Assembly (NCBI GenBank): GCA_025560025.1
Contig: CP048485.1
Location: 868,001 to 932,000, forward strand
DNA from: Agrobacterium tumefaciens
GTDB lineage: Bacteria; Pseudomonadota; Alphaproteobacteria; Rhizobiales; Rhizobiaceae
Direction: 5' to 3'
Length of the DNA: 64,000 nt
A program made the translations under genes and the position numbers. Positions 276 to 50,989 of the stretch are shown here, in pieces. The stretch's first letter is position 1; the number at the start of each line of letters is the position of its first letter. Below the pieces are notes generated by a model that did not search any database, was not told where the DNA came from, and saw only the letters and a list, made by a program, of their open reading frames with translations.

Positions 276-725
276 ATGAACAGAGTTCTTTTCTCAATCG
301 CCGCGATTGCTACGCTTACGCTGTCTCCCGTTATATCAACATCTGGGCAAGGTGTGGCGTGCGCGTCCCTGGTGGTTATCGACGGTGATACGATCAAGTG
401 CGACGGGCAGAACATGCGTCTGCTCGGGGGAGGGGTCCCATTCAAGTCTGGCGTGGATGCCCCTGAGATGGGGAGCCGCGCCAAATGCGAGTTTGAGCGG
501 GATCTAGCCTTGAAGGCAAAGGCGCGCTTGAAAGAACTGCTGCTGGCTGGCGTCCCCCGCATTGAGGACAGCGGCGCGAGGGACCGGACGCAAAGCCGCC
601 GGCCGCTCGTCAAAATCTATCTCCCCGATGGCCAAGAAGTTGGGCGGGTGCTTATGTCAGAAAGGCTAGCGAAGCCGTGGCATCCGAAGAGACGAATTGA
701 TTGGTGCCATACGTCAGGCGTATGA
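276..725 (+). CDS. secreted thermonuclease (SNase-like) family protein
   Basis: This 149-aa protein has an N-terminal signal peptide (hydrophobic residues about 4-24) followed by a staphylococcal-nuclease OB fold. Visible signatures are VVIDGDTI (about 32-39), the MRLLG strand, DAPE (about 62-65) and a CEFERDLALKAK helix. These match the Ca-binding and catalytic Asp/Arg/Glu positions of the SNase family. The protein is short, as in many alphaproteobacterial TNase-like proteins, and ends in a WC motif. Family knowledge implies a Ca-dependent phosphodiesterase exported to the periplasm or outside. Its substrate and whether it benefits the phage or the lysogen are unknown. It follows the small membrane protein gene by 1 nt. 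Confidence 0.8.
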   Translation: MNRVLFSIAAIATLTLSPVISTSGQGVACASLVVIDGDTIKCDGQNMRLLGGGVPFKSGVDAPEMGSRAKCEFERDLALKAKARLKELLLAGVPRIEDSGARDRTQSRRPLVKIYLPDGQEVGRVLMSERLAKPWHPKRRIDWCHTSGV

Positions 726-1486: not shown

Positions 1487-1520
1487 TTGACTCCCTTGAT
1501 GTTGAGAACATAATAAGAAC
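1487..1520 (+). promoter_or_regulatory. sigma70-like promoter overlapped by LexA (SOS) box
   Basis: TTGACT at 1487-1492 and CATAAT at 1509-1514 are separated by 16 bp. GAAC-ATAATAA-GAAC at 1506-1520 matches exactly the alphaproteobacterial LexA box GAAC-N7-GAAC and covers the -10 element. LexA binding would block transcription of the genes at 1594-2098 until DNA damage. LexA control is inferred from the motif only. Confidence 0.65.
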
Positions 1521-1593: not shown

Positions 1594-1788
1594 GTGCGCC
1601 CAGAAAAACGAGAACCGGAAGCCGATCCTGTGGATCATATCATTGCATGGCATGACGGAGACAGCCGCGCCGCGATCGAAACCTTGATGGAAGACATCCA
1701 GCATTTGCGGATGCAGCTTGCTTTAGCAACCGCCGCAATGGGCACGGGATTTACGAGGGGGTGGAAACCGGAGGCAGATCGGACGTGA
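1594..1788 (+). CDS. small SOS-box protein, HDGD...TRGW family
   Basis: This 64-aa protein is probably helical, with a conserved core HDGD-x2-AA-x-E-x-L ... MG-x-G-x-TRGW-x-P. About 25 of 44 core residues are identical to the chromosomal protein at 50212-50415. The start is GTG at 1594, preceded by GGAG at 1581-1584. A promoter overlapped by a LexA box lies 74 nt upstream, and the chromosomal paralogue also has a LexA box. The zinc-ribbon gene follows after 1 nt. The function is unknown; the shared motif pattern and shared SOS control suggest a damage-response role, which is inference. Confidence 0.75.
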   Translation: MRPEKREPEADPVDHIIAWHDGDSRAAIETLMEDIQHLRMQLALATAAMGTGFTRGWKPEADRT

Positions 1789-1789
1789 C

Positions 1790-2098
1790 ATGCACCATCG
1801 TCGCGGGATCGATCTTACCGGCGGCAACAACGACAATCAGCCGCCAAAGCCCACGGGCATCTTCGTCCCCCAGCGCGACCACTCCGCCACCTTGGCCGAT
1901 CTGCCACAATGGTATGTTCTCGGTGCTCAGTGTTGGCGGTGCAAGCGGGTCGGCATGCTGGATAGGTGGGCAATCCAGCGCAGGCATGGAAAGTTCAGGC
2001 CGATCATTTCCATGGAACCGCTGCTGCGTTGTCTCGGCTGCCAGAACCGCGAGAAAAACAGTTTTGTTCTCTCAAGGGCGAAAAGAGATTGGCCATGA
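1790..2098 (+). CDS. zinc-ribbon-like small protein (prophage)
   Basis: This 102-aa protein carries two cysteine pairs, CWRC (about residue 48) and CLGC (about residue 82), spaced as in a treble-clef or zinc-ribbon fold. It has no signal peptide. The ATG at 1790 follows the preceding stop by 1 nt, so translation is probably coupled and expression should follow the upstream SOS-type promoter. Zinc binding is inferred from the cysteines. A role in nucleic-acid or protein contact is plausible but not shown. Confidence 0.6.
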   Translation: MHHRRGIDLTGGNNDNQPPKPTGIFVPQRDHSATLADLPQWYVLGAQCWRCKRVGMLDRWAIQRRHGKFRPIISMEPLLRCLGCQNREKNSFVLSRAKRDWP

Positions 2099-50211: not shown

Positions 50212-50415
50212 TCAGTCGCGTCCGATATCCGGTGTCCATCCACGCGTATAGCCTTTTCCCATGATCGCAACCGCGAGGGAAAGCTGTTCCTGCAAATGCT
50301 CGATTTCGCCGAGAAGGGCCTCGACAGCCGCCTTCGCATCGCCGTCATGACACTGGATGACATATCCCGCTATGTCGTCCGGTCGTATGGGAGTGATTTT
50401 TTCAGCGTCGGGCAT
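50212..50415 (-). CDS. small SOS-box protein, paralogue of the prophage protein at 1594
   Basis: This 67-aa protein has the core HDGDAKAAVEALLGEIEHLQ and AIMGKGYTRGWTP. About 25 of 44 core residues match the prophage protein at 1594-1788. The start ATG 50415 follows GAGAGG by about 9 nt. A perfect LexA box (50435-50449) lies 20 bp upstream. Unlike the phage copy it has no zinc-ribbon neighbour. The function is unknown. Confidence 0.75.
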   Translation of the reverse strand: MPDAEKITPIRPDDIAGYVIQCHDGDAKAAVEALLGEIEHLQEQLSLAVAIMGKGYTRGWTPDIGRD

Positions 50416-50434
50416 AATGGATGACCTCTCTTTT

Positions 50435-50449
50435 GTTCACTAAATGTTC
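50435..50449 (-). promoter_or_regulatory. LexA (SOS) box upstream of the small-protein gene
   Basis: GTTC-ACTAAAT-GTTC matches exactly the alphaproteobacterial LexA consensus GTTC-N7-GTTC. It sits 20 bp before the start codon, in the core promoter of the gene at 50212-50415. Confidence 0.7.
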
Positions 50450-50584
50450 TAATTTTAGCGGAGAGTCAATAAGGCAATGCGCGCTGTCCCTGGACGGCCG
50501 ACGGCTTTACAATCGAGTTCATATTTTCAGGGGTTTAACCCGTGAATGCGCTCGAACATAAATGGAATGCTCGAGAGCGAAATG

Positions 50585-50635
50585 GGCAGAACGAGGGATT
50601 TGAACCCGAGACCTCCGGGGCCGGTGACGCGGAAG
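50585..50635 (-). other. tRNA-like 3' remnant
   Basis: The minus strand reads like the 3' half of a tRNA: GGGTTCAAATCCC as T-arm and CCGGCCCCGG as a collapsed anticodon stem, with TCTGCCC at the acceptor end. It lacks a full cloverleaf. It could be a decayed tRNA or an attachment-site scar. Confidence 0.35.
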
Positions 50636-50641
50636 CAAGCG

Positions 50642-50902
50642 TTAATGAACCGACGGGTCTTCGCCGTCCAGAAAGCTGCGAATCCCATCTTTTTCGCAAG
50701 TTGCCAGGAATTCCTCCCAGGCGTCCTTATCGGTAGCGAAAGGTTCGTCCCACGTGGTGACATCGTCGTGCTCGCTGATAACCTCGAGCGTCCAGTCCTG
50801 CTGGGTGCCAGCGGGACGGTGGATATCAACCAGGACCGTGATGCCGTCGTCTTCAAACTCGCCTGAGAATTCTGAGTGTTCGATTTTCGTTTTTTTGGCC
50901 AT
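50642..50902 (-). CDS. small acidic hypothetical protein
   Basis: This 86-aa soluble protein is acidic (EFEDDGITVLVDIHR, DKDAWEEFLATCEKDG). It looks like a compact alpha/beta protein of unknown function, with homologue-like composition seen in Rhizobiales. GAGGCG precedes ATG 50902. It lies between a tRNA-like remnant and tRNA-Pro. Confidence 0.65.
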   Translation of the reverse strand: MAKKTKIEHSEFSGEFEDDGITVLVDIHRPAGTQQDWTLEVISEHDDVTTWDEPFATDKDAWEEFLATCEKDGIRSFLDGEDPSVH

Positions 50903-50989
50903 CTCGGCACGCCTCATTCTCAGTTTTGGATAAACACACACCCGAACCGGTCTTAGTAATTCGCGCCTGGCGCTGACCGCAGGAGGGCT

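Follow-up and report, generated by a model that had tools for sequence, protein, structure and literature searches.

The LexA box is printed as GAACN7GAAC for the Alphaproteobacteria (PMC3091678) and as GTTCN7GTTC for Caulobacter (PMC12700426), each in the available part of the paper's text. SRAP (YedK/HMCES) operons are a second described point of comparison, reported by Aravind et al. (2013) with Ku, an ATP-dependent ligase and two Zn-ribbon-like domains (PMC3765255, available text). The Agrobacterium tumefaciens gene studied here resembles members of the alphaproteobacterial LexA (SOS) regulon in having an exact upstream box that is kept in orthologues, and differs from the described regulon in belonging to a family that the libraries scanned neither name nor model. 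Loci of this family resemble SRAP operons in placing SRAP near genes for possible Zn ribbons and, in part of them, near LigD; they differ in that the small SOS family is absent from the available text of PMC3765255 and in that the chromosomal copy is a solo gene. The available text of the phi2LM21 paper (PMC5537653) notes that phage's SRAP and ligase, not the family gene.

The 64,000-nucleotide stretch analysed (hereafter the window) encodes two members, a chromosomal gene and a prophage paralogue (Table 1). The original prediction took the chromosomal 67-aa protein to be a homologue of the prophage protein, at about 25 of 44 shared core residues, and BLASTP agrees on the homology (27/53 identical residues, E 6e-21). 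It also placed a LexA motif ahead of the chromosomal gene and the same SOS motif at both copies: an exact GAAC-N7-GAAC indeed stands upstream of each, 19 nt 5′ of the chromosomal ATG and 73 nt 5′ of the prophage start. The window holds five exact sites against 1.61 expected, and five are reached in 1 of 100 shuffles; the other three (49723, in the phosphatase ORF; 23163; 45316) lie inside coding ORFs. The single LexA gene found in the genome carries an exact box (GAACACATATGGAAC) immediately upstream, and recA of the same genome a one-mismatch box (GAACAAATAGAGTAC). On the prophage side, gene C has no Pfam match at E ≤ 0.1, and a weak staphylococcal-nuclease-like protein (276-725, plus strand; Pfam E 0.08) is encoded 5′ of the paralogue.

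Table 1. Coordinates in the window of the family genes, their LexA boxes and the blocks matching phage genes.
Feature	Position	Strand	Basis
Prophage LexA box GAACATAATAAGAAC	1506..1520	+	Exact motif match
Prophage paralogue, 64 aa, GTG start	1594..1788	+	Open frame, homology
Gene C, 102 aa, two CxxC pairs (possible Zn ribbon)	1790..2098	+	Directly 3′ of prophage paralogue; relatives in family loci
67-aa SOS-family gene (chromosomal, fused copy), ATG start	50212..50415	-	Open frame, homology
Block matching body of phage gene B (family gene)	50235..50390	-	156 nt, 73.1% to L083
Block matching promoter, LexA box and first ~7 codons of phage gene A	50394..50469	-	76 nt, 80.3% to L083
Chromosomal LexA box GAACATTTAGTGAAC (gene strand), GTTCACTAAATGTTC (forward)	50435..50449	-	Exact motif match
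TTGACT, possible -35 element of chromosomal gene	50464..50469	-	Kept in 21/21 fused orthologues (alignment)

The motif is not rare, with 162 exact sites genome-wide against 88 of its reversed form, and the boxes could in principle be chance matches next to small ORFs that LexA does not regulate. Across the family, an exact box lies in 121 of 137 distinct upstream regions (≤400 bp), which remain from 158 hits after removal of duplicate promoters (last 150 nt) and of those with less than 60 nt upstream, a few loci (L034, L121, L133) being counted repeatedly through alternative starts or split hits. Chromosomal orthologues have it in 15/15 cases, prophage-type members in 47/48 (the sole exception offers 72 bp of upstream sequence), other members in 39/43 and remote ones (E > 1e-9) in 20/31; control motifs in the same 137 regions give 7 (N6 spacing), 5 (N8) and 0 (reversed). 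Because many members are close relatives, we merged 216 hits by shared promoter or protein words into 88 clusters, which stay partly dependent (the fused orthologue L225 is set apart from the others); the exact box is found in 68 of them and missing in 20, against 2, 4, 5 and 1 for N5, N6, N8 and N9 spacings and 1 for the reversed motif. Of 13 box-negative members inspected, only two carry, within 200 bp, an A+T-rich site with one mismatch, compared with 26 of 1,090 random windows. Other ORFs of the same loci have the box upstream in 64 of 746 cases (reversed 10, N6 13, N8 13), a point in favour of chance, although part of this excess must come from neighbours in the same operon. With 68 of 88 clusters set against 1-5 for the controls, we rejected a chance origin of the box on shuffles, spacing and reversed-motif controls, and consider it extremely improbable that these small ORFs escape LexA regulation. 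The same comparison bears out the proposal of a conserved family under a LexA box in host and phage. The box also backs the distant kinship independently, since the profiles were built from protein sequence alone; among further members found with the remote-member profile it occurs in 8 of 14 (15 were new, one of which, L196, had been seen under another start; two of the 14, L209 and L210, are doubtful hits).

The family comprises 978 proteins found with a 14-sequence profile, 120 of them listed, and homologues are thus not rare. On sequence, its members are Hyphomicrobiales proteins of ~65 aa, and the alphaproteobacterial LexA box accompanies most of their genes or operons. Within the genus 38 of the 39 genomes surveyed have a match; matches also occur in at least 27 of 121 of the taxonomic family (three of the genus included) and, mostly weakly, in at least 26 of 199 of the order. 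The remote-member profile matches at least 13 of 101 genomes of the order and, in a sample of the class, the window's own genome only (1/96, candidates scored); absences in the family, order and class surveys are soft, many genomes having only part of their candidates scored. The distribution therefore looks genus-wide (38/39) but patchy across the order. The window proteins have no match at E ≤ 0.001 in Pfam, NCBIfam or PHROGs, nor do wider family alignments in Pfam or NCBIfam (best 0.0011, in 1 of 25 members), and the open-access literature searched yielded no description of the family. Database labels read 'hypothetical protein' or 'dehydrogenase'; the latter, on many NCBI records, seems ill suited to a protein of ~65 aa with a two-helix model.

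A third member lies in the same genome on contig C2, where a LexA box is followed by gene A (79 aa), the family gene B (66 aa), a gene C whose 159-aa product has CxxC pairs, and SRAP (Pfam PF02586, E 6.8e-29). Gene A (L002:1168-1407), directly behind the operon box, has no Pfam match at E ≤ 0.1 and has relatives in 34 of the loci searched. Agrobacterium phage Rivra shows the contig C2 order for genes A and B and an SRAP relative, and on a plasmid of Agrobacterium salinitolerans genes A and B have SRAP and LigD annotated alongside. Relatives of the prophage protein were found at 34 viral-contig loci, in 2 of 50,697 phage records and in 131 of 72,556 plasmid records. In two genomes (G005 and G006) the phage-operon family gene (L244, L245) is seemingly broken, its match split over two frames; the fused chromosomal copy (L104, L103) is intact in both.

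Comparison with this operon suggests where the chromosomal gene came from. Its 5′ part matches gene A, over a slightly longer stretch in L002 (79 nt, 81.0%) than in L083, and this block spans TTGACT, the LexA box, the ribosome-binding region and codons for about MSDAEKI. Its remainder matches gene B, also in L098 (136 nt, 78.7%), and about 305 nt that separate the two blocks in L083 are missing from the chromosomal copy. The chromosomal gene thus joins the promoter, box and first codons of gene A to the body of gene B, as a deletion would leave them, and we conclude with considerable confidence that it is of phage origin. In two other members of the genus (L105 and L238) an unfused relative adjoins the same phosphatase, with a box at -74 in L105 and no exact box in L238. 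As a family gene sits at the same site in other lineages, the fusion may stem from recombination into a resident copy; this and deletion in place may both be compatible with the data. The original prediction of two separate copies thus stands in that both are real and is refined as to descent, the host copy being read as two genes of a phage operon fused by deletion and not as an old independent host lineage.

Of the 39 genus genomes, 21 have a fused orthologue, in each case of 67 codons. The box, expected by the original prediction to be kept in orthologous promoters, is identical in all 21 of those fetched, at -33/-34; the box stands at -33/-34 in each of 12 named loci, among them those of A. 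tumefaciens, A. pusense, A. salinitolerans, A. arsenijevicii, A. leguminum and R. nepotum. A phosphatase adjoins the gene in 17 and an 89-99-aa ORF in 20, with at least one of the two in 21/21; in the window this ORF (50642-50941, minus strand) has no Pfam match (best E 0.15). The promoter block from TTGACT to GAGAGG is near-invariant among fused orthologues and sequence farther upstream has diverged. A -10 element would fall at 50441-50446, overlapping the LexA box; a consensus promoter scan upstream of the gene returned no promoter-like site. The dN/dS of the fused gene is 0.094 over 20 distinct orthologues (core 0.040), a value that indicates strong purifying selection and, like the sharply conserved footprint, runs against boxes placed by chance. 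LexA control of the chromosomal gene is accordingly predicted as very likely, and the joint reading, a phage gene kept by the host under LexA control, as likely. Upstream, 50584-50623 looks by eye like the 3′ part of a tRNA gene; we considered a tRNA remnant serving as attachment site and set it aside, since the stretch matched neither the neighbouring tRNA-Pro nor tRNA-Asn and Rfam found only the intact tRNA.

SRAP is present in the fetched flank of 49 of 135 distinct entries (L161 counted twice) and missing from that of 86, many of which have only a 1.5 kb flank; 46 of the 49 SRAP genes lie downstream on the same strand, 159-1,335 bp away. Seven of 31 remote entries have SRAP, three on the opposite strand and one being the second L161 copy. 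These counts are not independent, because many phage entries are close kin. With a background of 57 matches in 41 whole genomes of the order, we estimate that chance would put SRAP in roughly 0.1% of such flanks, and the linkage appears to recur across distant lineages. Around remote members SRAP (6) outnumbers every other Pfam family, HATPase_c (3), SNase (3) and Ku (1) among them, in a count that covers 99 of the 162 ORFs in their flanks and lists 25 of 42 families; LigD relatives occur in 11 of 123 family loci. The chromosomal copy (L001) has no SRAP in its flanks. Since it stands alone, an SRAP-like partner would have to be encoded elsewhere; three SRAP matches exist in the genome, including the one next to the contig C2 copy.

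From these neighbours, SRAP-type abasic-site or gap repair is the best single guess for what the family does, and we propose an SRAP-linked role there tentatively. Small phage- and plasmid-borne SOS modulators exist, and the protein, itself small, SOS-controlled and found on phages and plasmids, could instead modulate the SOS switch (RecA filaments or LexA cleavage) rather than act in repair, as might fit a gene that can stand without SRAP; recurrent SRAP, together with LigD in 11 loci, points to repair, the scans returned no known modulator at E ≤ 0.001, and we rank modulation second and regard it as rather unlikely. Another precedent is the small SOS-controlled cell-division proteins of Caulobacter (PMC4211646, available text), by which the family might be an SOS-induced brake on division. 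That role is improbable, given neighbours that are DNA-repair genes and no membrane segment visible in the two-helix model or the sequences. A damage-response action of the family, as the SRAP-linked role assumes, is suggested by regulation and neighbours, the two lines on which it rests.

AlphaFold2 modelling of the chromosomal protein (56 sequences; mean pLDDT 80.6, pTM 0.54) gives helices at 15-22 and 27-56, a turn between them at the conserved HDGD and a flexible tail with TRGWTP. G55, R58, G59 and W60 are invariant in a 64-sequence alignment; the remote set keeps the tail G at ≥90% and does not keep the W. A search of solved structures gave mostly designed or coiled-coil proteins, none of them below E 0.039, and Foldseek hits with the model were all above E 5 (best 5.2). 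The arrangement of helix, GD/GN turn and helix recalls UBA/CUE domains, CUE/UBA chains are among the Foldseek hits, and a few of 25 remote members have weak Pfam UBA matches (best E 0.0011). The model differs in having two helices rather than three, one of them ~30 residues long; with Foldseek above E 5 and Pfam at 0.0011 at best, we found kinship to UBA/CUE too weak to retain. A sliding-clamp-like motif in the long helix (QLSL) was also dropped, as its Gln is not conserved in remote members and the segment is a predicted helix.

In the mechanism we propose, LexA bound to the box would block the promoter of the chromosomal gene. On DNA damage, activated RecA would prompt LexA self-cleavage and the small protein would be made. 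Modelled as a short helix, GD turn and long helix, it would probably pair as a coiled coil and may present the conserved tail (G-Y/F-x-R-G-W-x-P) to a partner that repairs gaps or abasic sites; the SRAP (YedK/HMCES) pathway, often encoded alongside, would be the likeliest. More broadly, and as tentatively as for the SRAP-linked role, the family could be an unnamed group of small Hyphomicrobiales SOS effectors traded among phages, plasmids and chromosomes, an adaptor coupling SRAP-type abasic-site protection to the damage response; in the A. tumefaciens complex a phage copy would have turned into a stand-alone SOS gene of the host, a single deletion having left the phage promoter and LexA box in place. 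Beyond the original prediction, the analysis adds the wide family, its SRAP link, a third copy (contig C2) and the origin of the host gene as a phage fusion. SOS regulons are usually described by known repair genes; here, a large family that has no model in the scanned libraries is best marked by its LexA box, and provides a direct test case for what an uncharacterised SOS protein does. The chromosomal gene would also illustrate plainly how a phage operon can give rise to an SOS gene of the host, with the switch transferred together with the protein.
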